Notes under the pieces: generated by a model
Told to the model about the DNA's origin: nothing
Databases searched by the model: none
Seen by the model: only the letters and a program-made list of their open reading frames with translations
Program-made: the position numbers and the translations under genes
From: Candidatus Bathyarchaeota archaeon
GTDB lineage: Archaea > Thermoproteota > Bathyarchaeia > TCS64
DNA length: 62,229 bases
Reading direction: 5' to 3'
Assembly (NCBI GenBank): GCA_030739585.1
Contig: JASLYX010000008.1
Span: 1-62,229 of the forward strand
In this document: positions 1,793 through 60,301 of the stretch, in pieces
How positions within the stretch are numbered: the stretch's first letter is position 1
How the letters are laid out: every line of letters starts with the position of its first letter

Positions 1793-2791
1793 TTAACTTC
1801 CCCTTATTTCTTCCCACCGTAGACAAGAAACCCAGTGTTCCGGTTCTACCTCAATCAAATCTGGTATAATCAAGGTACACTCCTTAGTTGAATTTGGACA
1901 TCGGGTGTGGAAACGACATCCAGAAGGTAGATTAATCGGACTGGGCATTTCTCCTCTCAACGGTATTCTCTCTGATTGTTCATAGGGGTCTGTTGAAGGG
2001 ATGGCGGATAACAAAGCCTTTGTGTACGGGTGTAAAGGTGAGTTATAGAGATCGGTTACTCGAGCCATTTCCATTCCTTTTCCTAAATACATGACATAAA
2101 CCCAGTCACTCATGTGTCTTACAACGGAAAAATCGTGGGCAATTAATAGATAAGTTAAATTATAATCTTTCTTCAATTCTATTAAGAGATTTAATATTTG
2201 AGCCCTGATTGAAATATCTAAAGAAGATACGGGTTCATCAGCTACAATGAGTTTTGGGTTGAGGGCTAAAGCTCGGGCTACACCTATTCTTTGTCTCTGT
2301 CCGCCACTAAACTCATGAGGATATCTATCTACAAGTTTTGCTCCGGGTACAAGACCTACAATTTCTAAAAGTTCAATGACTCGTTGGCGTTTCTCGGATC
2401 CCTTGATCATGTTTTGTGTTCTAAGAGGTAAACCAACTATATTTTCCACAGTCATCCGAGGATTCAGGGAAGAATAGGGATCTTGAAAGATCATCTGAAT
2501 ATCCCGTCTCGTTTTTCTCAGTTCTTGTTTGCCGAGTTTCATCAAATCTTTTCCATCAAACCAAATCTCGCCAGATGTTGGTTCTATTAAACGCGTGATA
2601 AGTCTACCTGTAGTGGTCTTGCCGCTACCTGTCTCCCCGACTAGGCTAAAGGTTTCTCCTTTTTCAACTTTGAACGATATGTCATCTACCGCATGTACGA
2701 ATCCTTTACCTGTGGAGAAAACACTACTTTTCACAGGGAAATGTTTTGTTAGTCCGCTAATATTTAAAAGTGTGTCACTCATCTCGTTCAC
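1793..2791 (-). CDS. oppF: Oligopeptide/dipeptide ABC transporter ATP-binding protein OppF/DppF (copy 1)
   Basis: A 332-residue ATPase that powers peptide import. Walker A is GETGSGKTT (52-60), the Q-loop is IFQDP near 103, the ABC signature is FSGGQ (161-165) and Walker B is LIVADEP (181-187). The C-terminal oligopeptide-transporter extension carries four cysteines (C292, C298, C305, C323) in the 'PSGC..HTRCP' arrangement, which in some DppD/DppF proteins holds an iron-sulfur cluster. The start lies 6 bases after the oppD stop, in one operon oppB-C-D-F. The paralogue at 56476-57447 is closely similar. Confidence 0.95.
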   Translation of the reverse strand: MNEMSDTLLNISGLTKHFPVKSSVFSTGKGFVHAVDDISFKVEKGETFSLVGETGSGKTTTGRLITRLIEPTSGEIWFDGKDLMKLGKQELRKTRRDIQMIFQDPYSSLNPRMTVENIVGLPLRTQNMIKGSEKRQRVIELLEIVGLVPGAKLVDRYPHEFSGGQRQRIGVARALALNPKLIVADEPVSSLDISIRAQILNLLIELKKDYNLTYLLIAHDFSVVRHMSDWVYVMYLGKGMEMARVTDLYNSPLHPYTKALLSAIPSTDPYEQSERIPLRGEMPSPINLPSGCRFHTRCPNSTKECTLIIPDLIEVEPEHWVSCLRWEEIRGS

Positions 2792-2797
2792 ATCCTT

Positions 2798-3778
2798 CTA
2801 AAAGTCATTTCTAAAGCAAGCTATAAAATGTCCATTTTCATACTCTTTCAAAGGAGGAATTTCCTCTATACAGCGAGTTTCAATAAAAGAACATCTAGGG
2901 TGGAAACGACATCCAGATGGTGGATTAGCCATATCAGGAACATCTCCAGGGATTGAGATAAGCTCGCTCCGATCTTTTTCTATTTTCGGTAAAGAGGCAA
3001 GCAACCCAATCGTGTAAGGGTGTTCTGGGGATGTAACTATTTTAATTTTATCTCCTAACTCCACGATCCTACCCGCGTACATTACGGCTATTCGATCAGC
3101 AAGATTTACTACCACACCCATATCATGAGTTATCAAGATAATGGATAGATTCAATTTTTCTTTTAAATCTTTGAAGAGAGCTAAGACCTCCGCTTGAACA
3201 ATAACGTCCAACGCAGTCGTGGGCTCGTCTGCTATAAGGAGATCTGGGTTACAACTGAGAGCTATTGCAAGTAAAATACGTTGTCGCATACCGCCACTCA
3301 ATTGGTGAGGGTAGTCATTGGCCCTTAGAGGAGCATCGGGTATTTGTACCAGCTTCATGAGTTCAACAGCTTTTTCGAGGGCTTCTTTTTTTTGCAGATT
3401 TTGATGTAGGATTATGGCTTCAGCTATTTGATCTTTTACCCTATGTACTGGATTAAGATAGGTCATAGGGTCTTGAAAACTCATTGATATCTTTCCACCG
3501 CGTATACGTCTCATATCATACTCTGTTATTTTAAGGAGGTCTAAACCTTCAAGTAGAACCTTTCCATCAACGATCTTTCCGGGTGGATCAGGAACTAACC
3601 GCATAATAGAACGAGCTGTAACACTTTTACCAGAGCCTGATTCACCCACAAGACCCAGTACTTCGCCTTTATTTACATTAAATGTAACCCCATCAACAGC
3701 CTTAATTATTCCATCTGAGACAAAAAACCATGTTTTGAGATTTTCTACTTGAAGCAGGGTTTCTTTCACTTCATTCAT
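2798..3778 (-). CDS. oppD: Oligopeptide/dipeptide ABC transporter ATP-binding protein OppD/DppD (copy 1)
   Basis: A 326-residue ATPase, partner of OppF in the heterodimeric engine of the importer. It has Walker [10 protein letters not shown] (from about residue 45), signature LSGGMRQR and Walker [13 protein letters not shown]. The C-terminal domain has the same four-cysteine pattern (C290, C296, C303, C321) as OppF. Its ATG overlaps the oppC stop by four bases (3775-3778), so the two are translationally coupled. Copy 2 lies at 57474-58448. Confidence 0.95.
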
Positions 3779-4665
3779 CTCTCTTTTAAGTGTGGATTTA
3801 AGGCGTCATTTAGACCATCCCCTAGAAGATTGAAACCTATAGCTAGGAAAGTTATGCAAAATCCCGGAAACAAAGATAGCCACCAAGCTATTCTAAACGC
3901 TCTCATAGACTCATTAAGAATCCAACCCCAACTAACGGCGTTTGGGTCTCCTAAGCCCAAGAAACTGAGAGAGGATTCAGTCATGATTGCACCTGATACC
4001 CTCATAGAAGCACTAACTATAGCCGGAAAGATTGCATTGGGCAGTATCTCTCGGAATATAATATGAAAGTCAGTAGCTCCAGAACCTTCAGCTGCCAATA
4101 CGAAATCCATATTTTTAAAGGCTAGAAACTCAGCTCTAACAAGACGGGTCAGACCAGGCCATCCAGTGAGCCCCATGATCCACATAACATTCCATATATT
4201 GCTTCCAAACACGGCAGCTACGACTAGAATCATAAAGAAAGTAGGAAGCATCAGAAAAATATCAACGACTCTCATAATTAAATTATCAACTCGGCCTCCA
4301 TAGAATCCAGCGATTGATCCCAGAGCTACACCAATAAAGAAAGCAACACCCGTTGATAAGAAACCTATAAACAAAGAAGTTCTAGCGCCATACATCAAAC
4401 GACTAAGTTGATCTCTTCCAAATTCATCTGTGCCTAAAATGTATTCTGATTGAGGTCGTTTGAATGGCGCATCTGGATCATAAAGATTCATATCGAAGGG
4501 ATCATGGGGTGCTAGAAAAGGGGCGAATACAGCTATTATTAAAAAAAAGATAAAGATAAATAGTCCAAAAAGCGCAGCTTTATTCTTTTTAAATCTCACC
4601 CAGAATCCGAGGAGTCTGTCTTTTTGGAGTTTTATTGCATGAAATGTGGGGCTTCTTGGACTCAT
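3775..4665 (-). CDS. oppC: Peptide ABC transporter permease OppC/DppC (copy 1)
   Basis: A 296-residue inner-membrane permease with the N-terminal OppC_N helix ('KKNKAALFGLFIFIFFLIIA'), five further helices and the BPD_transp_1 domain. The cytosolic EAA loop reads 'EGSGATDFHIIFREILPN', where the ATPases dock. The segment 'LGTDEFGRDQLSRLMYGART' is typical of the family. It overlaps oppB at 4662-4665 and oppD at 3775-3778. Copy 2 (58452-59339) is nearly collinear. Confidence 0.95.
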   Translation of the reverse strand: MSPRSPTFHAIKLQKDRLLGFWVRFKKNKAALFGLFIFIFFLIIAVFAPFLAPHDPFDMNLYDPDAPFKRPQSEYILGTDEFGRDQLSRLMYGARTSLFIGFLSTGVAFFIGVALGSIAGFYGGRVDNLIMRVVDIFLMLPTFFMILVVAAVFGSNIWNVMWIMGLTGWPGLTRLVRAEFLAFKNMDFVLAAEGSGATDFHIIFREILPNAIFPAIVSASMRVSGAIMTESSLSFLGLGDPNAVSWGWILNESMRAFRIAWWLSLFPGFCITFLAIGFNLLGDGLNDALNPHLKER

Positions 4666-5621
4666 TGATATCTCACCCGTGGATCAACATAGGCATAAAT
4701 TATATCGGCCAATATATTGAGAAGAATCGTTATAATAGCAATTACTAAAAAATTAGCCATAATTACATTATAATCTCTTCTAAATATTGAATCATAGATT
4801 AATCTACCCATTCCAGGCCATGCAAAAACCGTTTCAACAAGTACAGCACCGGTAAATAACATTCTCAATCTAAGCGTAATTACAGTCACGATGGGGATCA
4901 GGGCGTTTCTAAATGCATGCCTAAAGAGAATAGTTCTTTCAGAGCAACCCTTAGCCCATGCAGTTGTGATATAATCTAATTTCAATACTTCTAACATGCT
5001 GGCACGTGTATATCGTGTATATAATGCTATTCGCCCGATGCTAAGACAAGTTGCAGGGAGAACGAGGTGCCACATCATACTATATATCTTTTCCATACCA
5101 GTTGTTCCAATTGTGTACATTCCCGTGATCGGAAAGAGACCTAAATGGAGGCCAAAAATAAGCAAAAATAGAATCGCTAACCAAAAATATGGCATGTTAA
5201 AGGTGACTAAGGTTGAAACCGTTATTACATTATCAGTCAGAGAATAAACCTTTTTCGAGGCAATTATACCCAGTATTATCCCCGATAATTCTATGATTAA
5301 GGATGTGCCTGTAAGTAGAAGAGTGTTTCTAAGCGCTGGGATCATTGTCTTAATAACAGGTTGCTGAAAATAGAAAGAAAATCCAAATTCACCTCGCAGT
5401 AAATTGCTCATATAGATAATGAGTTGTTCGTGCATTGGCTTATCAAAACCATATTTAGCCTTGACCATATCCAAATAACCTGAGGGCACTCCCTCTAGAC
5501 CAGATACCAAAAAGTCAACCGGATCTCCCGGCGCTAGCTGCATTATTACAAAATTTATGGTAATTATTATGAATATTAACGGAATAGCCTGCAACAAACG
5601 TGTTGCAACAATTTTTTTCAT
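4662..5621 (-). CDS. oppB: Peptide ABC transporter permease OppB/DppB (copy 1)
   Basis: A 319-residue permease and first gene of the oppBCDF operon. An N-terminal helix (MKKIVATRLLQAIPLIFIII), the periplasmic-loop motif 'APGDPVDFLVSG' and the EAA loop 'AKGCSERTILFRHAFRNALIP' mark it as OppB/DppB. The ATG at 5621 is preceded by a GAGG Shine-Dalgarno, so the message has a leader. The 304 bases upstream hold the promoter. Confidence 0.95.
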   Translation of the reverse strand: MKKIVATRLLQAIPLIFIIITINFVIMQLAPGDPVDFLVSGLEGVPSGYLDMVKAKYGFDKPMHEQLIIYMSNLLRGEFGFSFYFQQPVIKTMIPALRNTLLLTGTSLIIELSGIILGIIASKKVYSLTDNVITVSTLVTFNMPYFWLAILFLLIFGLHLGLFPITGMYTIGTTGMEKIYSMMWHLVLPATCLSIGRIALYTRYTRASMLEVLKLDYITTAWAKGCSERTILFRHAFRNALIPIVTVITLRLRMLFTGAVLVETVFAWPGMGRLIYDSIFRRDYNVIMANFLVIAIITILLNILADIIYAYVDPRVRYQ

Positions 5622-5925: not shown

Positions 5926-6645
5926 TTATTGTTTGTTCTCATTCAACATATATGCGCTACATCTTGGGCATTTAAACTGAGAGCATCTATAGATCCTAAG
6001 ATTCTGGGCCTTCTTCCCGCAGTTTACACAAACACAATCGACGTAAGATAACCACAGACAAATTATAAAGAAAATTAGGGTGAAGGTAAAGATTTGGATA
6101 AACGGGGGCATGATAAATATATCCATAGCTGCCTCTGCCCTAGTAATGACATGCCCACTTGTAGAATTATAGTAAAGTCCCACAATTTGAAGGTTCAACA
6201 AACCCAGTCTCGATCGGAGCCCCAACATGGGATAGCGAATACTAGGGAATTTCTGCGTGTTATACAATGTGTTAGATGAGATGAGGTTAGAGGACCCAAG
6301 ATAATTGTCATTAAATCCAGCTATTTCTTCACTATGTAGTAAGAATTTCACCTCATAGTTCACTTCCCTAGAGTAAACTGAGGTGAGTAAAGGTGGATCA
6401 TGTAGTGATGTGCCGACAACCACGGTAAACTCTCCAATTCTAGAGGGATCACCTGAATCATAAGCGACTTGAATCGAGGAATTTACTCTTCCCAGAGCAA
6501 CACCAAAAGGGTCGGTTAAATTAAAATCGGTAGAAATTAATTTGACATGATAATTCGGATGCTGGTAGGTGAACTCGAATAATAAGAGGGCGAATAATAC
6601 TCCTAGAATTACGAGATAAAGGGTTAACCTCTTTTCCCTTTCCAT
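5926..6645 (-). CDS. Two-helix membrane protein with C-terminal zinc ribbon, function unknown
   Basis: A 239-residue protein I do not recognise. An N-terminal helix (about 7-25) is followed by an outside domain of some 160 residues that looks beta-rich. A second helix (about 180-200) precedes a short cytosolic C-terminus with two CxxC pairs ('CVNCGKK' and 'CPRC'), a probable zinc ribbon. It lies 27 bases downstream of the winged-helix membrane gene 6673-7155 and is probably co-transcribed. The pair sits between ridA and oppB of module 1 and has no counterpart in module 2. A sensing or envelope role is possible, but nothing in the sequence proves it. Confidence 0.7.
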   Translation of the reverse strand: MEREKRLTLYLVILGVLFALLLFEFTYQHPNYHVKLISTDFNLTDPFGVALGRVNSSIQVAYDSGDPSRIGEFTVVVGTSLHDPPLLTSVYSREVNYEVKFLLHSEEIAGFNDNYLGSSNLISSNTLYNTQKFPSIRYPMLGLRSRLGLLNLQIVGLYYNSTSGHVITRAEAAMDIFIMPPFIQIFTFTLIFFIICLWLSYVDCVCVNCGKKAQNLRIYRCSQFKCPRCSAYMLNENKQ

Positions 6646-6672
6646 AACCTTGCAGCTCTAACCTTCCTATAG

Positions 6673-7155
6673 TTATTCGGGGTAATTATCCATTAGGAGT
6701 TTCTCAAATATCACCGATCTACGTCTGATAGTGATTATCTCCAAGGCCAAAGAAGAAATTGAGAAGAGAGCAAATCCTAGTAGATAGGATTCAGTAGTAA
6801 ATAATGTTCTCGGCAAAAATAGGATATAAAAGAAAAAGATAACAAGAGATGATAAAGTGAATGCAAAATAGAATATGTGCCTCATTTTGCTTCTATTATT
6901 TAACCAACTGAGATGAGTGATGACTCTGTCCAAAATACCCTCCTCTTGGATAATGTAAAGTCCCTCAATATCCTTTGTTATGAGTCCATCTCTCTCCATA
7001 CAACGGAGATAAAACTGCATGTCTCCTTTATTCACCAAGAAAGGGTTGTTGTCAGGATCCAAAGGATGTTTTATCATGTAAAGATAGAGCTCGAGAGCAA
7101 GTCCTTTTAGCTTTATCTTAGTTCCATGAGTGTAAGAAATATCATCAAGACTCAA
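6673..7155 (-). CDS. Winged-helix-like protein with two membrane helices, function unknown
   Basis: A 160-residue protein. Residues 10-80 resemble a winged helix-turn-helix domain ('LELYLYMIKHPLD', 'YLRCMERDGLI', 'GLYIIQEEG'). Two hydrophobic helices follow (about 92-113 and 122-142). The TTG at 7155 is the only reasonable start and follows a weak GGA-type Shine-Dalgarno. A DNA-binding-like head on a membrane tail suggests a membrane-tethered regulator. That is inference from layout only. Confidence 0.65.
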   Translation of the reverse strand: MSLDDISYTHGTKIKLKGLALELYLYMIKHPLDPDNNPFLVNKGDMQFYLRCMERDGLITKDIEGLYIIQEEGILDRVITHLSWLNNRSKMRHIFYFAFTLSSLVIFFFYILFLPRTLFTTESYLLGFALFSISSLALEIITIRRRSVIFEKLLMDNYPE

Positions 7156-7270: not shown

Positions 7271-7618
7271 TTAAGTACCAATATAGGCGATAGCGTCTAT
7301 CTCAACCAACATCTTAGGGCTCACCAATGGAGCTCCCACAGTAGTTCTCGCAGGGGGAACATCACCGAAGAATGTGACGTAAACGCCGTTCATACTCTTA
7401 AAGTCAGTCGTGTCCTTTAGAAAGACTGAGCATTTAACAACGTCATTCATTGAGGAGCCTGCCTCTTCAAGGGCCGCTTTCACGTTCTTGAGAGTTTGTT
7501 CTGTCTGTTCCTCAACGGTTTCTCCTATTGTTCTAGTATCAGGATTGAAACCAGTCTGTCCAGAAACGAAGACAAAGTTACCAACCTTCCTGAACGTTGA
7601 ATAGGGTCTTTTACTCAT
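7271..7618 (-). CDS. ridA: RidA/YjgF-family enamine/imine deaminase
   Basis: A 115-residue protein when started at the second ATG (7618), which has an AGGT Shine-Dalgarno about 8 bases upstream. An ATG five codons earlier is possible. The family signature is complete: 'VFVSGQTGFNP', 'QTLKNVKAALEEAGSSMNDVVKCSVFL' and the catalytic arginine in 'PPARTTV'. RidA hydrolyses reactive 2-aminoacrylate and related imines released during PLP-dependent amino-acid breakdown, forming trimers in the cytosol. It lies 212 bases after the PqqD-like gene. A decayed homologue lies upstream of oppB in module 2 (about 60625-60915). Confidence 0.93.
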   Translation of the reverse strand: MSKRPYSTFRKVGNFVFVSGQTGFNPDTRTIGETVEEQTEQTLKNVKAALEEAGSSMNDVVKCSVFLKDTTDFKSMNGVYVTFFGDVPPARTTVGAPLVSPKMLVEIDAIAYIGT

Positions 7619-7830
7619 ATTAATTACCTTCATATAAGCAACAGATTCAACTATTTAACAATTATTTCGTCAGTTAACGTGCATTTTCATTTAGGTTTTA
7701 ATTGAACGATTGGCATTGTAACCTCTTTCGACTTTATTAATAAAATCCATAAAAGTAGGAAAAAATATTCATAAAGTTTAATATGGTAAAATTGAAAAAA
7801 GGAGTAATAATTCGGGAAACGCTATCCGTT

Positions 7831-8139
7831 TCAATCCTTCTGGGAGAAGGTAAAAAACCCTTTCTCCTTAAGGTCTTTAAAAAGGAGCAAAACATGCTCA
7901 CCCTTTATCTGTAAACCATATTCGTATCCTACGGCAGCAGCAACCTCATCTATAGTGAGCTTCCCATCGGCAAAGTTTACAAATTCGTGGCTCAAAGGTC
8001 TTATTGAGTAGAAGTTGACGTCGGGATCGACTTTTTTCATCTTGTTGCACATCTCCCACCTAAGCTTGAACCCTGTTCGTACTACCTGGTTTGCACCCGG
8101 AACCTTTTTTGGAATAATCTTAGTAACATCGTATTTCAT
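7831..8139 (-). CDS. PqqD/RRE-like small protein paired with the M28-like peptidase (copy 1)
   Basis: A 102-residue protein. The C-terminal half ('LSHEFVNFADGKLTIDEVAA', then '[16 protein letters not shown]') has the pattern of PqqD-type winged-helix domains, the RiPP recognition element fold: an N-terminal helix, the 'DG..t..EiA' turn and a final 'L..kGl' strand. The first 40 residues are basic and lack a clear RRE beta-sheet, so the match is partial. It starts 4 bases after the peptidase stop, so the two are co-translated. A paralogue at 52055-52363 stands in the same relation to the second peptidase. It may dock a peptide or regulate the enzyme. This is inference. Confidence 0.7.
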   Translation of the reverse strand: MKYDVTKIIPKKVPGANQVVRTGFKLRWEMCNKMKKVDPDVNFYSIRPLSHEFVNFADGKLTIDEVAAAVGYEYGLQIKGEHVLLLFKDLKEKGFFTFSQKD

Positions 8140-8143
8140 TTTT

Positions 8144-9838
8144 TCAGACCTCCTTTGAGAAAAGGGCTTTATAGCCGTCTATTTTCGCTTTCTCAACGGC
8201 CTTTGCCTCAAGTACGCCATTCATAAGTCCATCTAACTCCTTACGGAAAGAGGAATTATCCTCAAGAGCCTCTATCGATTCAAGAGCACCAAGAGTTCTA
8301 TTTGCCAAATAATCAATCTTTCCCTTATGATGTTCACTTATATGGTTTATCTTGGCCACTGTTCCGGACACGGTGGTCACAGCATCCATTATTTCGCTGT
8401 ATGCTTGGGTAGATACATGCATGAACCGGGACTTTCCCTTAGATTCTACAACTTTTGCTATGAACCTTGCCTCATTAGCGCCAGCATTGGCTAGCATCAA
8501 AGCCACGCTTGTTGTGACCTCACCGCACCGTTTCAAAACGGCGGGATCAAGCTTATCAGAAGTCATGAACTGGGTGTGGAAGTGTCTGGCGGGCCATGAC
8601 ATAAACAGAGGTGAGGGGACCATTAGTCGCATTAGCCGTGAGTTATCACTCCAAGGGGTATAAGGTACAGCGTTAAACCGGATTAATTGTATATCTTTTG
8701 TCTCGTCTTTAAAGGGAGGAAGACCATCCTTTGAGACCTTATCAATCGTGTCTATACAAAGGTCGTTGATGAATGAAGGAATTGATTCAGCAGATTTATA
8801 CATTATAAGTGAAGAGCCACACTCATTCTGATCATTTCCCACACTGCAATAGACGAAAGCAGCGACAACTTTCTTCACATCATCAGGTCTGGCGGTGAGA
8901 TATGAAGTTAAACCTCCACCTTCGGCGCCTAAGAGGAATTTTATTGTTCTTTTTGGTCGAGGGACCTTCCCCTGGGTTATTAGGGTCATTATGGCTCTTG
9001 CATTCTCGATCCATAATCCAACCCCTCCTGCACAATTAGCTCCAGGTTTAGTTCCTGAGCTATGAGCAACGAACCAGATTTCCTGCTCAGGTTTTTCACT
9101 ACCTTCAATTACACCTACCAGCTCTTCTCCTTCCGCCTCATAATTTACAGCATCAATAAAAGCTTTCAGTTTTACAGGGCCTTTCTTTAACTGGGATCGG
9201 AGAAAAGTACCGTGCGTGTGAGAGATTACGAAGGCCCATCCGGTTTCTTCTCGAGAGGGTACCCTCAAAAGAGTTTGGGCATTAGGATGATTTTCCCGCG
9301 TTCTAACCGAGTTTGGATAAATCAGGTTGTCAGTAACAAGACCTATAGCGCCGTACTTTTCGACTGCGAGACGATATGCCTGGCTATTACCCTCTGCATG
9401 TCCATCTCCACTCGCTAAGGCTATCTTACCGTTGACATCTTTTCCTTGATAATCATCCTCGTTGACACCTGGACCTACATCAACTAATTCTGCCACTACT
9501 CCTTCAGGAGGTGTGGGTATACTCCAGTGTTGAATGCAGGTTGGTGACTCTGCATAAGATGTTATCCTCTTTTGAACAGGCTCAACAATATCTAAAATTG
9601 CGTCGTTCACGTCCCATCCGAAACATTTGAGCTCTTCAGTCCCATGTTCTTCAGAGGGATATTTTATAGTAAAGACACTATCTAGACCATATTCATTTAA
9701 TTTTTTCTCAGAATAATGAATTGTTTCATGGATTCCAACGGAACCCGGGGTTCGCATAAACTGGGAAATATAATTTGCATGTTGCCAAGCCTTATGTCCC
9801 TCTAGTTCATTTTTAACGAGTTTTTGAATATAATTCAC
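8144..9838 (-). CDS. M28-like aminopeptidase homologue with PA domain and altered metal site (copy 1)
   Basis: A 564-residue cytosolic protein without a signal peptide. Residues 1-95 resemble the N-terminal lobe of M28 peptidases, 100-240 a protease-associated (PA) insert, 245-455 the Zn-peptidase core, and 460-564 a helical tail. Core landmarks are 'FVAHSS' (H259), 'PGANCAGGVG' (C269), 'LLGAEGGGL' (E306, G307), 'VYCSVG' (C331), 'WSDNS' and 'HFHTQ' (H421). Against classical M28, the bridging Asp and the second Asp ligand are Cys, the Glu ligand is Gly and the Asp of HxD is Ser. Both copies share this. The GTG at 9838 is backed by a TATA box about 30 bases upstream. It could be a peptidase with a thiolate metal site or a binding protein. 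Confidence 0.85.
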   Translation of the reverse strand: MNYIQKLVKNELEGHKAWQHANYISQFMRTPGSVGIHETIHYSEKKLNEYGLDSVFTIKYPSEEHGTEELKCFGWDVNDAILDIVEPVQKRITSYAESPTCIQHWSIPTPPEGVVAELVDVGPGVNEDDYQGKDVNGKIALASGDGHAEGNSQAYRLAVEKYGAIGLVTDNLIYPNSVRTRENHPNAQTLLRVPSREETGWAFVISHTHGTFLRSQLKKGPVKLKAFIDAVNYEAEGEELVGVIEGSEKPEQEIWFVAHSSGTKPGANCAGGVGLWIENARAIMTLITQGKVPRPKRTIKFLLGAEGGGLTSYLTARPDDVKKVVAAFVYCSVGNDQNECGSSLIMYKSAESIPSFINDLCIDTIDKVSKDGLPPFKDETKDIQLIRFNAVPYTPWSDNSRLMRLMVPSPLFMSWPARHFHTQFMTSDKLDPAVLKRCGEVTTSVALMLANAGANEARFIAKVVESKGKSRFMHVSTQAYSEIMDAVTTVSGTVAKINHISEHHKGKIDYLANRTLGALESIEALEDNSSFRKELDGLMNGVLEAKAVEKAKIDGYKALFSKEV

Positions 9839-50197: not shown

Positions 50198-50638
50198 GAC
50201 AAGTCGTCTTTCTTTATTCTAAACCTTTTAAATGCAAGAAATTGTTATAAAACAATGGAAGTTAATCGCCCCCGCGACGTATCAAGAGCGCAATATCCTT
50301 TTAGAAGATAGAAAAAATAGACTTCACTCATTACACCCTGAAAGAAAGGAATACATCAGTACAATACTTGCTATTCCAGATTAAAGCGTCCAGAAGCTGG
50401 ATAGCTTTAATACACTTGTCACCTGTACAAGCGTTCTCGGCGACCATATGTTACGCGTGTAAAATAAATGATCTCTTAAGAGTGCACCCAAGAACCTGCC
50501 TGTGAGGGCGCAATTCATTAAGAAGAAGATTTTCATAATGGTCAATTGATGGTACAAACAATCTTTAGAATAATAACGCTTCGCGCGCACATCACCATCT
50601 TTAAATCAAACCACATATTGCCTAGAATAAGTGTTTGT
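50198..50638. other. Divergent promoter region between hflX and the M42 peptidase
   Basis: 441 bases with no credible gene. It holds a minus-strand TATA box for hflX (50226-50236, CATTTAAAAGG read on that strand) and a plus-strand one for the peptidase (TTTAAAT, 50600-50606, about 33 bases before its ATG). Both suggest leaderless messages. Confidence 0.5.
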
Positions 50639-51733
50639 ATGGTTCTAAATATTTATGAAACTCTTAATGAGTTAATTGAAGCTCCAGGAGTCCCTGGATT
50701 TGAGGAGCAACGAAGGAAAAAGATCATTGAACAATTTTCTCGGTATTGTGATACCGTTTCGGTAGATGTGATTGGAAACGTAATCGGAACCCTTGGCGAC
50801 GGCGAAAGATCCGTTATGATCAGCGGTCACTACGATCAACTTGGATTTATGATAAAGAATGTGGACGACAAAGGATATGCTAGCATCGTCAATGTAGGAG
50901 GATGGGATAAGAGGACAGCATACGGATTAAGGGTTAAAATCTGGGTAGGAGATGGACCAAACGATTATGTTATTGGTGTAATAAGCGCTGTTCCCCCACA
51001 TGTAACAAACCCATCAGAGAGGGAAAAAGTACCATCAATTGATAATATGACACTCGACTTTGGTGCAAGCAGCAAAGAAGAGGCAGTAAATATGGGCGTA
51101 CTCCCTGGATGCACCTGTACTCCAGATGCCCGCCTCGACTATCTTGGAAAAAAGGATTCAGACCTGGTCATAGCGCCTTCTTTCGATGATATTAGTGCAG
51201 TTGTGTCTCTCCTTGTGGCGCTCGAAGAGCTAAAAAAAGATCCCCCTGAAGGTCTAAAGATACATGTTGTAGCTACTGTGCAGGAAGAAGTTGGATTGAG
51301 GGGAGCCACTGTTTCGGGGTTTAATCTCAATCCATGGGTTACAATGAACTCAGATACGACAAGCGTTCTCGCCCCGGGGGTACCAGCATCAAAGGTCGGG
51401 AGTATAAATCTCGGAGAAGGTCCGATAATATGCTTAGGCCCGGCATTTAATAGGAAACTCTGGGAGCTTATGATGAAAGTTGCAGAGGAAGAGGGAATCC
51501 CGTATCAGAGGCGTGGAGTGCCAGCTAGGAGTGGGAACGACTCTTGGGCGCTCCAGATAGCGAGGGGAGGATCAATTTGCGGATTACTCTCGATGCCTAA
51601 CAGATATATGCACTCTGCCAACGAGGTTGTATCTCTAAAAGATATTGAAAACATTGGAAAGCTATTCGCTGCGACTGCAAAGGCTTTAACAACTTGCGAC
51701 ATGCCCCACACCGTCCAAGTTTTCAAGAGATAA
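50639..51733 (+). CDS. M42-family (TET/glutamyl) aminopeptidase
   Basis: 364 residues from the ATG at 50639 (MVLNIYETLNELIEAPGVPG), where the family match begins. An ATG 31 codons upstream is not supported. The co-catalytic metal site is complete: 'SGHYDQLGFM', 'PSFDDISAV', 'QEEVGLRGA' with the catalytic Glu, and 'MHSANEVV'. M42 enzymes form large tetrahedral shells that trim peptides left by the proteasome or import. It contrasts with the altered M28-like proteins of the two peptide modules. Confidence 0.94.
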   Translation: MVLNIYETLNELIEAPGVPGFEEQRRKKIIEQFSRYCDTVSVDVIGNVIGTLGDGERSVMISGHYDQLGFMIKNVDDKGYASIVNVGGWDKRTAYGLRVKIWVGDGPNDYVIGVISAVPPHVTNPSEREKVPSIDNMTLDFGASSKEEAVNMGVLPGCTCTPDARLDYLGKKDSDLVIAPSFDDISAVVSLLVALEELKKDPPEGLKIHVVATVQEEVGLRGATVSGFNLNPWVTMNSDTTSVLAPGVPASKVGSINLGEGPIICLGPAFNRKLWELMMKVAEEEGIPYQRRGVPARSGNDSWALQIARGGSICGLLSMPNRYMHSANEVVSLKDIENIGKLFAATAKALTTCDMPHTVQVFKR

Positions 51734-52054: not shown

Positions 52055-52363
52055 CTATATTTTTTGTTCGAAAGAAAGGTACCCTTTTTCTTTATGAGGA
52101 AGGAGAAACATTAAAACATGTTCCCCTGAAATCCTCATGCCAAATTCGTAACCCACAGCATCAGCAATATCTGAAACGGTTCGTTTTCCGTTAATAAAAT
52201 TCAAAAATTCGTGATTCAAGGGACGTGTTGAGTAAAAATTGATATTAGAATCTACTTTCTTCATCAATTTATAAAGTTTCCATCTAAATTCTCTCGTAAG
52301 ACGATTGGGAATGAGCGTATTTCCTAGTAATGTGGGTATTGTATTTTCACAATCTATTTTCAT
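52055..52363 (-). CDS. PqqD/RRE-like small protein paired with the M28-like peptidase (copy 2)
   Basis: 102 residues, the same length as copy 1 (7831-8139). The C-terminal PqqD-like part is shared ('LNHEFLNFINGKRTVSDIAD', then 'EHVLMFLLPHKEKGYLSF'), while the first 25 residues differ. The shared invariant core is 'MKKVD..NFYS.RPL.HEF'. It starts 3 bases after the stop of the second peptidase gene. Conservation of both pairing and length after duplication argues that the two proteins act together. Confidence 0.7.
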   Translation of the reverse strand: MKIDCENTIPTLLGNTLIPNRLTREFRWKLYKLMKKVDSNINFYSTRPLNHEFLNFINGKRTVSDIADAVGYEFGMRISGEHVLMFLLPHKEKGYLSFEQKI

Positions 52364-52366
52364 TTT

Positions 52367-54103
52367 TTACACTTCCTCCAATAATGAACTAAAGCTATCA
52401 ATTTTTTCAATTTCAAATTTATTTTTCTTTAAAAATGATTCCTTTAATGAATTCACTTCATCATAAAAAGAAGAATCATTTACCAAACTCTTAACTGATT
52501 CAAGCGCTCCAAGACTACGTTCAGTCAAGTAAGTTATCTCACCTTTGCGGTACTTTACGATTTTCTCTATGTTTTTAATAGCTTCTTTTCTTTGTTTACC
52601 ATCTTTATTCAGCTCACAAAGTTCATCTAATAAATCATCATATGTCTGCACGGAGGCATTCATTAGTCTTGCTTCACCTTTAGACTCAACCATATGGGCT
52701 ATATATCTAGCTTGATCAGTTCCCGCATTTGCTATTGTCAACGCTACACTTGTGGTAACCTCACCGCACCGTTTGAGCACTGCTGGATCCAATTTATCAG
52801 CTGTGTAAGATTGAGTATGGAAATGTTTGCAAGGCCAAGACATAAACAAAGGTGACGGGACCTTAAGTCTCATTAGTCGAGAGTTATCACTCCAGGGCGT
52901 ATACGGAAGAGTGTTAAATCTTATCAATTTGATATCTCTATCCTCATCCTTAAATTGTGGTAAACCATCCTTTGAGACCTTTTCAATAGTATCGATGCAG
53001 AGATCGTTTATGTAAGATGGGATGGATTCAGCGGATTTGTATAGTATTAGAGAAGTTTGACTTTCACTTTGGTCATTTCCAACACTACAATATACAAAGG
53101 CTGCTAATATATTTTTAAAATCTCCTGAAAATGTCTTAAGATATGCACCAAGCCCAGCACCCTCTGCCCCAAGAATGAATTTGATTGTCCTTTTTGGTCG
53201 AGATATTTTACCTTGCCTTATCAACGACATTATAGTTCGAGCATTCTCAATCCATAGCCCAACTCCACCAGCACAGTTACCCCCAGGTTTTGTACCAGAG
53301 CTATGTGCTACAAACCAAACTTCCTGTTCAGATTTTTCACTGCCATTTATTACGCCTATAAGAGCTTCTCCCTTTCCAGGGAAAAGTTTTGCATCAATGA
53401 ATGCTTTTAATTTAACTGGGCCATTCTTGAGCAGAGATCTAAGATATTCGCCCTGCGAATGAGAAATACTAAAAGCCCAACCAGTTCCCTCTTTGGAACA
53501 ACATCTCAATAGGGAAATGGCATCCGGATGGTTCCTTCTAACTCTATTTCCCTTGTTATCATCTCCGGGTAAATTTCGTTCATACAGAAAATTATCGGTG
53601 ACAAGTCCAATAGCACCATATTTTTCAATGGCTAGTTTAAACATCCTAACCCCACATGGTAGATTACCTTCTCCGCTTGCCAAGACTATTTTTCCTTGAA
53701 CATCTTTTCCTATAAAATCAGACTCTTCAACACCTCTACCAACATCAACTAGCTCTGCCACAACTCCCTCTGGAGGCGTGGGAATGCTCCAATGCCCAAT
53801 ACACGTTGGGGCATCATCATAAGAGGTGAGTTTTTTATCTATAGGTCCAACAATTTCCAAAGAAGCATCGTTTACATCCCATCCAATGAAGCCAAGGTCC
53901 TCAGTACCATTATCATCAGAGGGATATTTTACGACATAAACTTCATCCAGTCCATATTCCTCAAGTCTTTCTCTAGAGTATTTAATTGACTCTCTAAGTC
54001 CTGAAGATCCATGTTGTCTTAAAAATTGCGTAACAAAATTTGCATGTTGCCAAGCCTTATGACCAGAAAGATCCGTTACAACACTTTTTTGTAGCTTATT
54101 CAA
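52367..54103 (-). CDS. M28-like aminopeptidase homologue with PA domain and altered metal site (copy 2)
   Basis: 578 residues, collinear with copy 1 apart from an insert of about a dozen residues in the PA domain ('LPGDDNKGNR'). The diagnostic changes are kept: 'FVAHSSGTKPGGNCAGGVG' (Asp ligand to Cys, HxD Asp to Ser), 'ILGAEGAGLG' (Glu ligand to Gly), 'FVYCSVGNDQ' (Asp to Cys) and the final 'HFHTQ'. No signal peptide, so cytosolic. The TTG at 54103 has a GAGGTG site about eight bases upstream and a TATA-like element near 54130-54143. Codon use is more A+T-rich than in copy 1. Confidence 0.85.
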   Translation of the reverse strand: MNKLQKSVVTDLSGHKAWQHANFVTQFLRQHGSSGLRESIKYSRERLEEYGLDEVYVVKYPSDDNGTEDLGFIGWDVNDASLEIVGPIDKKLTSYDDAPTCIGHWSIPTPPEGVVAELVDVGRGVEESDFIGKDVQGKIVLASGEGNLPCGVRMFKLAIEKYGAIGLVTDNFLYERNLPGDDNKGNRVRRNHPDAISLLRCCSKEGTGWAFSISHSQGEYLRSLLKNGPVKLKAFIDAKLFPGKGEALIGVINGSEKSEQEVWFVAHSSGTKPGGNCAGGVGLWIENARTIMSLIRQGKISRPKRTIKFILGAEGAGLGAYLKTFSGDFKNILAAFVYCSVGNDQSESQTSLILYKSAESIPSYINDLCIDTIEKVSKDGLPQFKDEDRDIKLIRFNTLPYTPWSDNSRLMRLKVPSPLFMSWPCKHFHTQSYTADKLDPAVLKRCGEVTTSVALTIANAGTDQARYIAHMVESKGEARLMNASVQTYDDLLDELCELNKDGKQRKEAIKNIEKIVKYRKGEITYLTERSLGALESVKSLVNDSSFYDEVNSLKESFLKKNKFEIEKIDSFSSLLEEV

Positions 54104-54230: not shown

Positions 54231-56117
54231 TTATGTATTTTGCTTGGTTTGCCAGTAGGTGAAAATTGAAACAACAACAGCGATTAGAGAGAGAATGGTT
54301 GGAATCATAGTTTGAGCAGAATCTCCTGCGGGTCCTACGGGTCCTTGTGGGCCAGCGTCACCTTTCGCTCCTTTCGCTCCTGTAACTCCTGCGGCTCCTG
54401 CGGCTCCTGCGGCTCCTGCAGCTCCTGCAGCTCCAGCTTTACCTTTAGCTCCTGCGGCTCCTGCAGCTCCAGTAGCTCCAGTAGCTCCAGCTATAGGCTC
54501 ATCACTTGCAGGGGGTTCTCCGTGTATCCACCAGATGTTTTCAAAGCTTTTGGCTGACCTAGAAGGCAGTAACGACTCAACATTCTTGAAATCATTCCTA
54601 TAGATCGTAGTTGAGCCACCTGATAGTAGATGTATAAATGGTAGTTCTTCATTACCTATCTTCTGCATTTCGAAGACTATGTCTCTTCGCTTTAGTGGGT
54701 CCATTTCCACCATAACGTCTTCACTCAACTGGTCAATTCTAGCATTGCTGTAATAGCCCATGTTCATTGTACCAGTTGGCTTCGAAGCATGGTGATTGAC
54801 TAACTCTCCAGGAGGCCATCCTCCAATATGGACATATGTCAACGGATAGTCTTTCAAACCCTCAGCTCCATGTGAGAATGTTGCTACGAAGGTAACGTAT
54901 TCATAGACTTCAATTTTGATTTCTATGCCTACATCTTTCCACATTTCCTTGATAAGTTCCATAGCATTAACAGAATACCAGCGGTCCCAAATTGGGAAGG
55001 TAAAACTGAACCTGACACCATCTGCATCTTTTGGATAACCTGCCTCATCTAACAGTTTGTTAGCCAGGTCCGGGTCATATTCATATTTTTTCGCATCAGG
55101 ATTTATCCACCATGATGCGCCCGCTCCAACAGCTGTATGGACACGCTTTGCTTGTCCCCTATGAACTCGCTCGACTATAACATCGGCGTTGGTTGCATGG
55201 GCGAAAGCTTGTCGTACCTTTATATCGGCTGACCAAGGGTGCTTGTCAATAGCTTCTTGTCGGTGGTTAAAGGTTAAACGAGTAGAACCACTCGAGAGCG
55301 ATTTATAGGATCCTACATAGTCTTTTTCTAGCATACGAGGAAGTTCTTCCATCGGAGGTGAAGTATAGTCTACCTCACCCGCTTCGAATGCTATTAAGCC
55401 GGCATTTGTGTCATACATTACCCTCATGACTACCTTGTCCAGGTATGGCAATCCACCCTTGAAGTAATTAGGATTTTTTTGGAGTAAAACGTGGGTCTCT
55501 GGTACAAATTCCGCCACGGTAAATGCACCAGTTCCTACGGGTACGGTATTTGCTGGATTTGTTTCTATATCAGTTCCTTCCCAAATATGTTTGGGCATGA
55601 TAAAGGTATCAGACTGAGTGAAAGCATAAAGGATGGGCTGGCAAGGTTTGGAGTATTTGAATGTCACGGTATAAGGATCAGGCGTTTCTATAGATAGTAG
55701 GTTTACTAACCTTGGCTTAACGTAGGTTACAATATCCTCACTTGCCAACATTTCATAATGAAATTTGACGTCGGCTGAGGTAAATGGTTCTCCATCATGC
55801 CAAGTAACGTTTTCATGTAAATAGAAGGTGTGGGTCTTTCCATCTGCTGAGAAATCCCACTTGTAAGCAAGATCAGGTATCAAGTTCCGGTCCTTGTCTT
55901 GGGTAACCAAACGGTTGAAAACATTGACGTGAACTTGACAGGAAGTGCTCCAGTAGTTTAAGTAGCCGTTCATACTGATAGGATTACCCTGATGCCTCAT
56001 CTTGAAAGTCCCCCCATATAGTGGCTCTTCTTCTGCGTATGCAACCACTGAGATTATGCTAAGGACGAAAACCAAGGAAAGGAATAAGGATAATTTAATT
56101 AGTTTTGATTTTTTCAT
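54231..56117 (-). CDS. Peptide ABC transporter substrate-binding protein with collagen-like stalk (copy 2)
   Basis: 628 residues: signal peptide (about 1-28), family 5 binding domain (about 35-535: 'YGGTFKMRHQGNPISMNGYL', 'WHDGEPFTSADVKFHYEM', 'PVGTGAFTVAEFVPE'), then 19 uninterrupted Gly-X-Y triplets (about 544-600) and a C-terminal membrane helix 'TMIPTILSLIAVVVSIFTYW' with a short cytosolic end. The lipid-anchor Cys of bacterial homologues is absent; the C-terminal helix does that job. Its own TATA box lies at 56143-56152. Downstream follow the peptidase and PqqD-like genes. Confidence 0.93.
   Translation of the reverse strand: MKKSKLIKLSLFLSLVFVLSIISVVAYAEEEPLYGGTFKMRHQGNPISMNGYLNYWSTSCQVHVNVFNRLVTQDKDRNLIPDLAYKWDFSADGKTHTFYLHENVTWHDGEPFTSADVKFHYEMLASEDIVTYVKPRLVNLLSIETPDPYTVTFKYSKPCQPILYAFTQSDTFIMPKHIWEGTDIETNPANTVPVGTGAFTVAEFVPETHVLLQKNPNYFKGGLPYLDKVVMRVMYDTNAGLIAFEAGEVDYTSPPMEELPRMLEKDYVGSYKSLSSGSTRLTFNHRQEAIDKHPWSADIKVRQAFAHATNADVIVERVHRGQAKRVHTAVGAGASWWINPDAKKYEYDPDLANKLLDEAGYPKDADGVRFSFTFPIWDRWYSVNAMELIKEMWKDVGIEIKIEVYEYVTFVATFSHGAEGLKDYPLTYVHIGGWPPGELVNHHASKPTGTMNMGYYSNARIDQLSEDVMVEMDPLKRRDIVFEMQKIGNEELPFIHLLSGGSTTIYRNDFKNVESLLPSRSAKSFENIWWIHGEPPASDEPIAGATGATGAAGAAGAKGKAGAAGAAGAAGAAGAAGVTGAKGAKGDAGPQGPVGPAGDSAQTMIPTILSLIAVVVSIFTYWQTKQNT
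54318..54488 (-). repeat. Collagen-like Gly-X-Y repeat (19 triplets)
   Basis: GAA is the commonest triplet, with GAT, GAK, GKA, GVT, GDA, GPQ, GPV, GPA and GDS. The last part (GPQGPVGPAGDS) is closest to true collagen. The DNA is a run of near-identical 9-base words, prone to slippage. Confidence 0.92.
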
Positions 56118-56475: not shown

Positions 56476-57447
56476 TTAGATTTCATCCCATCTATGACAA
56501 GAAACCCAATGTCCAGGTCGGATTTCCATAAAATTGGGATTAATGTTTATACATTTTTCTTCAGTATAAGGACATCTTGTATGGAATAAGCATCCTGAAG
56601 GTGGATTTATAGCGCTGGGCATCTCACCTTTTAATTTTATTCGTTTCTTTTCTATACTGGGATGGATAGGGGGTACAGCAGATAACAAAGATTTTGTGTA
56701 TGGGTGTAAAGGTTTTTTATAAAACTCTTTAACCCGTGCTAACTCCATCCCCCTTCCAAGATACATAATACAGACCCAGTCGCTCATATATTTGACAACA
56801 GAGAGGTCATGTGCAATCAACAGGTAGGTTAAATTATAGCGCTCTTTCAGATCTTTTAAAAGGTTTAATATTTGAGCCCTAATTGAGATATCTAAAGATG
56901 ATACTGGTTCATCAGCTACAATAAACTTAGGACTGAGAGCCAAAGCTCTGGCTACGCCTATCCTTTGCTTTTGTCCTCCGCTAAACTCATGGGGAAACCT
57001 GTCCAAGATCTTTTCTGCAGGTTTAAGACCAACAGTCTCTAAAAGTTGAATGACCCTTTGACGTTTTTCCTTTCCAGAAGAGATCTTGAGTTGTTCTAGA
57101 GGTAATCCTACTGTCGACTCTACAGTCATCCGAGGATTAAGGGATGCATATGGATCTTGAAAGATCATCTGTATATCTCGCCTTGTCTCTCTCAGTTCTT
57201 TTCTATTTTGAGTGAGCATATTTTTTCCATCAAATTCAATCTCACCAGCTGTTGGTTCTATCAATCGCATTATCATTGAAGCAACAGTGCTTTTCCCGCT
57301 GCCAGTCTCACCAACCAAGCTGAAGGTTTCGCCAGCACGAATTTGAAAGGAGATATCTTCTACAGCGTGAACTACATCACTCGAGGATGAAAGAAAGCTT
57401 TTTCGAACTGGATAATACTTTTGTAATCCACGCACATCTAGAATCAC
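56476..57447 (-). CDS. oppF: Oligopeptide/dipeptide ABC transporter ATP-binding protein OppF/DppF (copy 2)
   Basis: 323 residues: Walker A GETGSGKST (46-54), signature FSGGQKQRIG, Walker B FIVADEP, and the C-terminal four cysteines (C286, C292, C299, C317). GTG start at 57447 with an AGGTG site upstream; the in-frame sequence before it has a stop. 26 bases after oppD. Confidence 0.95.
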   Translation of the reverse strand: MILDVRGLQKYYPVRKSFLSSSSDVVHAVEDISFQIRAGETFSLVGETGSGKSTVASMIMRLIEPTAGEIEFDGKNMLTQNRKELRETRRDIQMIFQDPYASLNPRMTVESTVGLPLEQLKISSGKEKRQRVIQLLETVGLKPAEKILDRFPHEFSGGQKQRIGVARALALSPKFIVADEPVSSLDISIRAQILNLLKDLKERYNLTYLLIAHDLSVVKYMSDWVCIMYLGRGMELARVKEFYKKPLHPYTKSLLSAVPPIHPSIEKKRIKLKGEMPSAINPPSGCLFHTRCPYTEEKCININPNFMEIRPGHWVSCHRWDEI

Positions 57448-57473
57448 TTTTTTTATTCCGGTTCACCTACATA

Positions 57474-58448
57474 CTAAAACTTATTTATTTGGAAACAGGC
57501 CACCAGGTGGTCTTTTTCATACTCTATGAGGGAGGGGACCTCCTCTCGACAACGGGATATGGCATGGGAACACCTTGGATTAAAACGGCATCCAGAAGGT
57601 GGATTGATCATATCAGGAATATCTCCGGGTATTGAGATGAGCTTTTCTTGATCCTCTTCAATTCTCGGTAGGGAATCGAGGAGTCCGATTGTATAAGGGT
57701 TCTTAGGAGAATCAAAAATAGTCGTAATTTCGCCATATTCCATGATTCTGCCTGCATACATTATCGCAACTCTGTCTGCCAAGCGTGCAACTACTCCCAA
57801 ATCATGGGAGATCAAAAGCATGGATAAATTTAGCTTTAATTTCAGATCTTTTAGGAGATCAAGAATATTTGCTTGAACAATAACATCTAGTGCAGTTGTA
57901 GGCTCGTCAGCAATTATAAGCTCGGGATTACAGGATAAAGCCATTGCTAATAGTACGCGTTGTCGCATACCTCCACTAAGCATGTGAGGATAATCCCTAG
58001 CCTTTTGAGGGGCATCCGGAATCTGCACTAATTCCATTATTTCTATTGCCTTTTCAAAAGCCTCCGATTTTCTAAGTTTTTGATGTATAATAATGGCTTC
58101 AGCTATCTGATCCCCAATTCTATGAACAGGGTTCAAATATGTCATCGGATCTTGGAAACTCATGGCTATTCTTTTGCCTCGAATCTTCCACATTTCACTT
58201 TCTTTAGTTTGAAGGAGATCAAAGTCGTCTAAGAGGACTTGTCCATCAACAATTTTTCCTGGTGGACTAGGAATTAAATTCATGATGGAAAGAGCGGTCA
58301 CACTCTTCCCAGAGCCAGACTCACCAATTAAGCCTAAAACTTCTCCTTTATGTATTTTAAAAGATACACCATCAACGGCCTTCACTAGACCTAAAGAAGT
58401 AAAAAAATAAGTTTTGAGGTCACGAACTCTTAGAAGAATTTCGCTCAT
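57474..58448 (-). CDS. oppD: Oligopeptide/dipeptide ABC transporter ATP-binding protein OppD/DppD (copy 2)
   Basis: 324 residues: Walker [10 protein letters not shown] (42-50), signature LSGGMRQR, Walker [13 protein letters not shown], and the C-terminal 'PSGCRFNPRCSHAISRC' cysteine motif. Three bases after oppC. The first half is nearly collinear with copy 1. Confidence 0.95.
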   Translation of the reverse strand: MSEILLRVRDLKTYFFTSLGLVKAVDGVSFKIHKGEVLGLIGESGSGKSVTALSIMNLIPSPPGKIVDGQVLLDDFDLLQTKESEMWKIRGKRIAMSFQDPMTYLNPVHRIGDQIAEAIIIHQKLRKSEAFEKAIEIMELVQIPDAPQKARDYPHMLSGGMRQRVLLAMALSCNPELIIADEPTTALDVIVQANILDLLKDLKLKLNLSMLLISHDLGVVARLADRVAIMYAGRIMEYGEITTIFDSPKNPYTIGLLDSLPRIEEDQEKLISIPGDIPDMINPPSGCRFNPRCSHAISRCREEVPSLIEYEKDHLVACFQINKF

Positions 58449-58451
58449 GAA

Positions 58452-59339
58452 TTATCGCTCCTTTAGATGAGGATTTAGCGCGTCGTTAAGTCCATCTCCG
58501 ATCAAATTAAAACCAATGGCTATGAGAGTTATCGTTAAGCCTGGGAAGAAAGATAGCCACCAAGCTGATCTAAATGCCCGCATGGCTTCATTAAGAAGCC
58601 ACCCCCAACTAACTGCATTAGGGTCCCCTAAACCCAAGAAACTGAGAGAGGCTTCAGTCATGATAGCCGCAGAGACTCTCATTGAAGCGTTGACTATTAC
58701 AGGGAAGAACGCATTGGGTAATATCTGTTTAAAAACAATGTGAAAATTTGTAGCACCGGCAGCTCTCGCTGCCTTTACATAATCCATATCCTTGATAGAG
58801 AGGAACTCAGCCCTAACAAGTCGTGCTATCCCAGGCCAATTGATGAGACCTATAATCCACATGACATGCCAGATGCTGTTGCCAAATACAGCGGCTCCAA
58901 TAAGAATTAAAAAGAATCCTGGAATCATGAGGACAGTATCAACAACACCCATAATTATCATGTCAACTCGTCCTCCATAATATCCAGAGATAGATCCGAG
59001 TACCACGCCAATTGAAGTACATATACTTGTTGATAACAATCCTATGAACAGAGATGTCCTAGCCCCATGCATTAATCGACTCAATTGATCTCTTCCGAAA
59101 CCATCTGTACCGAGTGGATGTTCACGGCTAGGTGGTTTAAAAGGGGCCTCTGGGTCCATAAAATTCATTTCAAAAGGGTCATGTGGCGAAAGATAGGGGG
59201 CAAAGACCGCTATAAAAAAGAAAAAGGTAAAAATAAATAACCCCAGCAACGCTGCCTTATTCTTTTTAAATCTGTTCCAGAACTTTAGGAATCCATCCTT
59301 TGACTGTATTAACCCTCGGAATAAGGAACTCTCATTCAT
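58452..59339 (-). CDS. oppC: Peptide ABC transporter permease OppC/DppC (copy 2)
   Basis: 295 residues with 'NRFKKNKAALLGLFIFTFFF', 'LGTDGFGRDQLSRLMHGART' and the EAA loop 'AAGATNFHIVFKQILPNAFF'. It shares one base with the oppB stop codon, so oppB and oppC are translationally coupled. Confidence 0.95.
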   Translation of the reverse strand: MNESSLFRGLIQSKDGFLKFWNRFKKNKAALLGLFIFTFFFFIAVFAPYLSPHDPFEMNFMDPEAPFKPPSREHPLGTDGFGRDQLSRLMHGARTSLFIGLLSTSICTSIGVVLGSISGYYGGRVDMIIMGVVDTVLMIPGFFLILIGAAVFGNSIWHVMWIIGLINWPGIARLVRAEFLSIKDMDYVKAARAAGATNFHIVFKQILPNAFFPVIVNASMRVSAAIMTEASLSFLGLGDPNAVSWGWLLNEAMRAFRSAWWLSFFPGLTITLIAIGFNLIGDGLNDALNPHLKER

Positions 59340-60301
59340 TAGTACATAACCCTTGGATCTACGTATGCGTAGAGCACATCTGCCACTAGATTAAAGAAAA
59401 TCGTTATAATTGATAAAAGGAAAAAGTTAGCCATTAATACGTTAAAGTCTCTACGGATAACGGAATCAAAGACAAGTTTTCCTAATCCCGGCCAAGAAAA
59501 AACGGATTCCACAAGAAGAGCTCCGGTAAATAAGGTTCGTAATCTAAGAGCAACTACAGTTATGATGGGAAGCAGTGCATTTCTAAATGTATGATTATAA
59601 AGAACGGTTTTTTCATTGCAACCCTTAGCTCTTGCGGTAGTGATATAGTCTAATCGGTTTATTTCTAACATACTTGCTCGGGTATACCTCGTATATAATG
59701 CAATTCTCCCCAAGCTTAGACAAGCTACAGGAAGAATTAGATGCCAAAGTATGCTAAGCAACTTAGCATCACCGGTAACGCCTATCGTAACTATTCCACC
59801 TATTGGAAAAATTGGAATGTAAAGCCCAAATATGAGTAATAACATCATTCCTAGCCAGAAATTAGGTATATTATAAAATAACAAAGTACCTATAGTTATA
59901 CTATTATCAGTTAGAGAATAGACCTTCTTTGATGCCATGACCCCTAGCATTATCCCTATGGTTTCTATTATCAAAGATGTAGAGGTTAAAATAAGGGTAT
60001 TTCTGAGTCGTGAAAGCAACATATTGAATACCGGTTGATGGTAATAAAAGGAGTACCCAAAATCTCCCTTTAATAACTTCTGAAAATAAATAACCATTTG
60101 CACATGAACAGGTTTGTCGAAACCATATTTTGCTTTGAGCATTTCAACATACCCCTTCGGAACTCCCACTCCCTCCACCCCAGAAACTAAAAAGTCTACA
60201 GGATCACCTGGAGCAGCCTTCATTATCAAGAAATTTACAATCATAATTATGATTATTAGAGGAATAGCTTGCAAAATTCGCTTTAAAATATATTTTCCAA
60301 T
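59339..60301 (-). CDS. oppB: Peptide ABC transporter permease OppB/DppB (copy 2), start codon uncertain
   Basis: About 320 residues if started like copy 1. Landmarks are 'APGDPVDFLVSGVEGV', 'FGYSFYYHQPVFNMLLSRLR' and the EAA loop 'AKGCNEKTVLYNHTFRNALL'. Aligned with copy 1 (MKKIVATRLLQAIPL), the frame here reads IGKYILKRILQAIPL with ATT (60301) at the start position. A GAAGGA Shine-Dalgarno (60311-60316) sits nine bases before it. The first usual start is TTG at 60274, which would cut into the first membrane helix and lacks a ribosome site. Either ATT/ATA initiation or a recent start-codon loss is possible. Confidence 0.88.
   Translation of the reverse strand: MGKYILKRILQAIPLIIIIMIVNFLIMKAAPGDPVDFLVSGVEGVGVPKGYVEMLKAKYGFDKPVHVQMVIYFQKLLKGDFGYSFYYHQPVFNMLLSRLRNTLILTSTSLIIETIGIMLGVMASKKVYSLTDNSITIGTLLFYNIPNFWLGMMLLLIFGLYIPIFPIGGIVTIGVTGDAKLLSILWHLILPVACLSLGRIALYTRYTRASMLEINRLDYITTARAKGCNEKTVLYNHTFRNALLPIITVVALRLRTLFTGALLVESVFSWPGLGKLVFDSVIRRDFNVLMANFFLLSIITIFFNLVADVLYAYVDPRVMY

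Follow-up and report, generated by a model that had tools for sequence, protein, structure and literature searches.

Results

Two M28-like genes lie in duplicated oligopeptide transporter operons

The window, by which we mean the whole stretch of 62,229 nucleotides that was analysed, is an entire contig (G000:C8) of a Candidatus Bathyarchaeota archaeon and contains one copy of an oligopeptide (Opp) transporter cassette near each end, the first binding-protein gene being cut by the contig start. Each cassette contains a gene for an M28-like protein with a remodelled active site: W1 (8144–9838, minus strand, 564 aa) and W2 (52367–54103, minus strand, 578 aa), which are 64% identical to each other and exhibit the same active-site pattern. 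Four bases after W1 and three bases after W2 follow the short genes S1 (7831–8139, minus strand) and S2 (52055–52363, minus strand), both encoding a detached winged-helix domain. The first operon, read on the minus strand, has the order W1, S1, a gene for a RidA-family protein (7271–7633; Pfam PF01042, E = 4e-35), two small proteins, two permeases and two ATPases (1793–5621; Pfam ABC_tran, oligo_HPY, BPD_transp_1 and OppC_N) and the truncated solute-binding protein (1–1803; PF00496, E = 4.5e-86). The second operon, on the same strand, has the order two permeases and two ATPases (56476–60274), solute-binding protein (54231–56117; PF00496, E = 6e-79), W2 and S2, with the binding-protein gene lying directly upstream of W2. 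Gene by gene, the permeases and ATPases of the two sets are 66–72% identical, whilst the two binding proteins, which are paralogues, share 52% identity; the transporter genes have thus been duplicated along with W1 and W2.

Several further features of the two loci were noted. The binding protein encoded at 54231–56117 carries a collagen-like repeat (PF01391, E = 7e-8) after its binding domain, and a hydrophobic C-terminal stretch beyond this repeat looks like a membrane anchor. The two small proteins between the RidA gene and the permease gene of the first operon (5926–7155) were described by eye: one starts with a winged-helix-like segment and has membrane helices, and the other is membrane-anchored with a zinc-ribbon-like end. 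On the opposite strand, a gene resembling an M42-type aminopeptidase, likewise recognised by eye only, adjoins S2/W2 (50546–51733).

Fold and family membership of W1 and W2

The assignment of W1 and W2 to the M28 fold is based on profile searches and on structure prediction. The scores obtained with the Pfam M28 model (PF04389) were 17.7 bits for W1 and 14.8 bits for W2, both below the cut-off of 21.3, and the DUF4910 model (PF16254) matched neither protein up to an E-value of 10, although 27 of the 29 members of the family alignment do match it. A family profile searched against known structures retrieved 2EK8 (E = 4e-33) and 3K9T (E = 2e-24). With an alignment of 14 sequences, including DUF4910 and M28 sequences from IMG/VR, AlphaFold returned a model with a pTM of 0.69 and a core (residues 241–340) with pLDDT values mostly between 73 and 95; with W1 and W2 alone as input the mean pLDDT was 37. 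The modelled core matches 2EK8, 3K9T and the transferrin receptor in the PDB, the first two being the best: Foldseek aligned the model with 2EK8 at E = 3.5e-19, and 3K9T, the second-ranked match, gave the top TM-scores (0.51/0.67) among the 50 matches listed. We regard the predicted M28/DUF4910-like fold of both proteins as secure; both are probably intracellular.

Relatives were collected through whole-genome searches of the window's class (257 genomes) and of two samples of the phylum (300 and 398 genomes, which overlap with each other and with the class). Many were found within the same phylum; they are about 680 aa long, show 28–36% identity and mostly carry the motifs H-x-C-H-P, [S/G]ANDNASG, PE, NLDM, SDH and YHTSxD. 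Among these genomes, none other displayed the active-site pattern of W1 and W2, and no close relatives were found when genome contigs were scanned, nor in viral contigs searched by protein or by alignment. A literature search retrieved no paper on this variant. In the tree, W1 and W2 pair with the relatives L035 and L056 with a support of 92, a sister relationship that is tentative because long branches meet there. The genome that encodes W1 and W2 also contains other M28-family peptidase genes.

These relatives (L003 and L035, for example) share the domain order of W1 and W2, including a C-terminal winged helix, but in them this domain is fused, whereas in both window copies it is encoded by a separate adjacent gene. 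S1 and S2 were identified with a profile of the C-terminal domain built from 43 relatives (E = 5.5e-11 and 1.2e-10) and are the only two of the 282 ORFs in the window to match it; the C-terminal winged helix that characterises DUF4910 is thus supplied here as a separate protein. The domain is PqqD/HTH_47-like: six members of the family alignment weakly match PF05402 (PqqD; best E = 2.4e-4), while searches of S1 and S2 with PqqD models gave no Pfam match and, for S2 only, TIGR03859 at E = 0.16. The relatives also differ from W1 and W2 in having the metal-binding Asp residues and the second shell intact, and in their surroundings: across 15 regions from 13 genomes, several of them cut by contig ends, no full Opp set was found around a canonical relative. 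A few of these regions contain lone ABC-ATPase-like genes; a major-facilitator gene occurs close by in two, accompanied in one case by a gene for a Pab87-like peptidase.

Active-site residues compared with those of the relatives

The active-site residues were compared in an alignment of W1 and W2 with 51 relatives. A preliminary description, made from the DNA sequence alone, had aligned W1 with M28 landmarks by hand and had proposed that metal-binding acids were replaced by cysteines; all seven residues it named (H259, S261, C269, E306, G307, C331 and H421) are where it placed them, and the same pattern is present in W2. Of the five M28 zinc ligands (His, Asp, Glu, Asp, His), both proteins keep the two His residues: H259 (codon at 9062–9064, equivalent in W2 at 53303–53305, minus strand as for all codons below), which at least 95% of relatives share, and H421 (8576–8578; W2 52817–52819), which is invariant across DUF4910 and M28 sequences. 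Also kept in both copies are D398 and E306 (8921–8923; W2 53162–53164), the latter being invariant in alignments A2 and A3.

Both metal-binding Asp residues, each present in 51 of 51 relatives, are gone from W1 and W2. At the second of these positions the change is a clean swap for C331 (8846–8848; W2 53087–53089), as had been proposed. The first is less certain: C269 (9032–9034; W2 53273–53275) had been equated with the bridging Asp, and the relatives do carry Asp (51/51) followed by Asn (50/51) here, but the segment is one residue shorter in W1 and W2. Where the presumed sisters have PGANDNA[A/S]G, the window copies have PGANCAGG, i.e. PGANDNA has become PGANCA, so that C269 may occupy either the slot of the bridging Asp or that of the residue after it, and its role as a metal ligand is doubtful because of this contraction. 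The two further losses described for W1 and W2 proved to be nothing special to them, as the relatives already lack the HxD Asp and the second Glu: at position 261 they have Cys in 43 of 51 cases and otherwise Tyr or Asp, and at position 307 they have Met, Thr, Phe, Tyr, Leu or Cys, the second Glu being absent throughout. Conversely, three losses common to both copies had been overlooked: H262 (present in 45/45 relatives), H399 (44/50) and D425 (50/50). Two additional cysteines, C361 and C438, are common to both copies and absent from all relatives. Given the Cys frequency of these proteins, a chance occurrence of Cys in or adjacent to two ligand slots has a probability of about 1e-4 to 1e-3, for positions that were chosen after the fact.

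In the AlphaFold model, H259 is predicted to end the strand 249–259, C269 lies just ahead of the helix 270–288, E306 sits in the loop between the strand 297–304 and the helix 308–316, and C331 ends the strand 324–331. The prediction thus places these four residues on the M28 active-site elements, although the contraction leaves C269 doubtful as a ligand there too. A canonical set of ligands provided by neighbouring residues was rejected, since the three residues on either side of H259, C269 and C331 include no Asp or Glu. Sequencing error is ruled out by the occurrence of the same pattern in two copies at 64% identity.

The role of E306 is dependent on the method of assignment. In an ungapped sequence alignment it corresponds to the first member of the EE pair in M28, in line with its earlier designation as the retained general base. 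In CA_C2195 from Clostridium acetobutylicum (PDB ID: 3K9T), however, Das et al. (PMC4000134) place the general-base slot at Pro225, which immediately precedes the equivalent Glu, and on this assignment E306 would be the second, ligand Glu. As the two disagree, E306 is either base or ligand: of the HxD Asp and catalytic Glu of M28 enzymes, the Asp is replaced by S261, and E306 would stand at either the first or the second Glu of the pair.

Selection on the two copies

Comparison of W1 with W2 gave a dN of 0.285 with synonymous sites saturated, and both genes are under purifying selection. Between the copies, identity reaches 87.5% in the active-site segments and 60% elsewhere (Fisher p = 2.7e-6), a difference that remains when only the other parts of the M28 core are taken for comparison (p = 0.02). 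In a hand count of family-conserved positions that have changed in W1 and W2, the copies agreed in their new residue at 12 of 14 positions near the site versus 2 of 8 remote ones. As the pocket is conserved more between the copies than the remainder, it is not decaying, which bears out the view that the pattern is not random decay; the remodelling of the pocket predates the duplication and has been maintained ever since.

Discussion

The M28 fold has become a non-peptidase more than once, with the transferrin receptor, glutaminyl cyclase and DUF4910 as examples. The closest comparison for W1 and W2 is CA_C2195 (DUF4910-DUF2172-HTH_47), which likewise combines an M28-like core and a C-terminal winged helix with a non-canonical active site. 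This protein binds one Zn through H189, D195 and H324 (PMC4000134), and of these ligands W1 and W2 keep only the third (H324, equivalent to H421), having no equivalents of H189 and D195. They further differ from it in their long PA-like insert, in the winged helix being a separate gene and in their neighbours, which are peptide transporters rather than sugar-modification genes. The PA-like insert followed by the M28 core is shared with the Aneurinibacillus aminopeptidase (PDB ID: 2EK8), an M28 enzyme with a PA domain; that protein is an active dinuclear zinc enzyme, whereas W1 and W2 do not have the metal-binding Asp residues. The transferrin receptor has the M28 fold but binds rather than cleaves (PMC4000134) and in this resembles what we propose for W1 and W2, namely loss of the peptidase function and binding of a partner; it is extracellular, of animal origin and shows a different pattern of loss, and no direct kinship is claimed.

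Canonical dinuclear catalysis by W1 and W2 is very unlikely, because both metal-binding Asp residues and two of the three single-Zn ligands of 3K9T are lost. Of the three readings offered in the preliminary description (a single-metal thiolate site with a kept general base, a redox-switched enzyme, or a peptide-binding protein that has lost hydrolysis), the last agrees best with the operon setting and with how much of the active site is lost. We therefore favour, with a probability of about 0.52, the interpretation that W1 and W2 are repurposed M28-fold proteins that have lost the dinuclear zinc centre and act as non-hydrolytic binders of imported peptides. The dinuclear aminopeptidase centre would have been lost while the pocket was kept and remodelled under selection; the later duplication would have covered the gene, its split-off winged-helix partner and an oligopeptide ABC importer, and pocket and partner would together bind the peptides brought in by the transporter, serving as a carrier, a sensor or a specificity factor. 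That the winged helix is a peptide-recognition module has been proposed by Das et al. (PMC4000134). The loss of H262, H399 and D425 alongside both metal-binding Asp residues argues for binding, as do the lack of a nearby Asp or Glu that could replace them, the linkage to Opp and solute-binding-protein genes at both loci, the duplication of the transporter genes, the lack of a full Opp set around canonical relatives in the 15 regions sampled, the transferrin receptor among the fold matches, the other M28-family peptidase genes of the genome and the pocket being the conserved part between the copies. The retention of H259, E306 and H421 speaks against it, since mere binding would not call for these residues, and so does the low probability that the two cysteines are there by chance. 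The location of each copy within a peptide-importer operon makes repurposing probable, and we infer from it that the ligand is a peptide, which W1 and W2 would not hydrolyse; such an association is not proof of the ligand.

A thiolate metal enzyme is the strongest alternative, though on balance somewhat unlikely: one ion would be held by H259, C331, H421 and perhaps C269, and E306 would serve as acid/base, making the protein a mononuclear His/Cys peptide or amide hydrolase. Comparable chemistry is found in cytidine deaminase (Cys2His and Glu) and peptide deformylase (CysHis2 and Glu). In its favour, both copies retain the residues such a site needs, selection on the pocket is strong, and chance would rarely put cysteines in or next to two ligand slots. 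A parallel is also found in a different M28 family (about 600 aa) within the same archaeal family, of which two members from different genera (L054:997–2757, minus strand, and L159:1501–3255, plus strand; 59% identical) carry a Cys in precisely the bridging-Asp position (GSCNAVG and ASCNALG versus GATDNCTG/GVTDNASG in other members) and keep the His and Asp of HMD, the second metal-binding Asp and the final His; no Opp linkage was seen in the regions read. Against a thiolate site are the uncertain place of C269, which arose through contraction, the loss of the second-shell residues H262, H399 and D425 and the doubt over E306 as base. The fuller proposal, in which cysteines would have taken over from both metal-binding carboxylates and the resulting mononuclear His/Cys metal hydrolase would be coupled to the import of peptides, we consider unlikely. 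Chemistry by a metal-free Cys–His pair, serving in the former active-site pocket as a nucleophile or a redox switch, is more improbable again: the model would place C331, C269 and E306 on M28 active-site elements, and C361 and C438 are peculiar to the two copies, but nothing pointed to redox chemistry, no redox partner gene was found among the neighbours examined, RidA being the only small accessory enzyme seen, and we know of no precedent for it in the M28 fold. That W1 and W2 are inactive, functionless leftovers of relaxed decay after duplication is very improbable, for although several invariant residues are lost and the pattern occurs in one genome only among those searched, both ORFs are intact, the pocket is the best conserved part and its changes are largely common to both copies, at a dN well short of the saturated synonymous sites.

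As peptide-binding proteins, W1 and W2 would probably represent an Opp-linked variant of the known repurposing of the M28 fold, and one in which the change can be pinned to a single lineage: intact relatives are available for comparison, two diverged copies reveal selection on the new pocket, and the transporter hints at the ligand. Should the cysteines bind metal, W1 and W2 would instead provide a rare natural case of a carboxylate-to-thiolate switch in a peptidase fold; taken with the independent Asp-to-Cys change in the other M28 family, they would imply repeated shifts from carboxylate to thiolate metal centres within this archaeal group.
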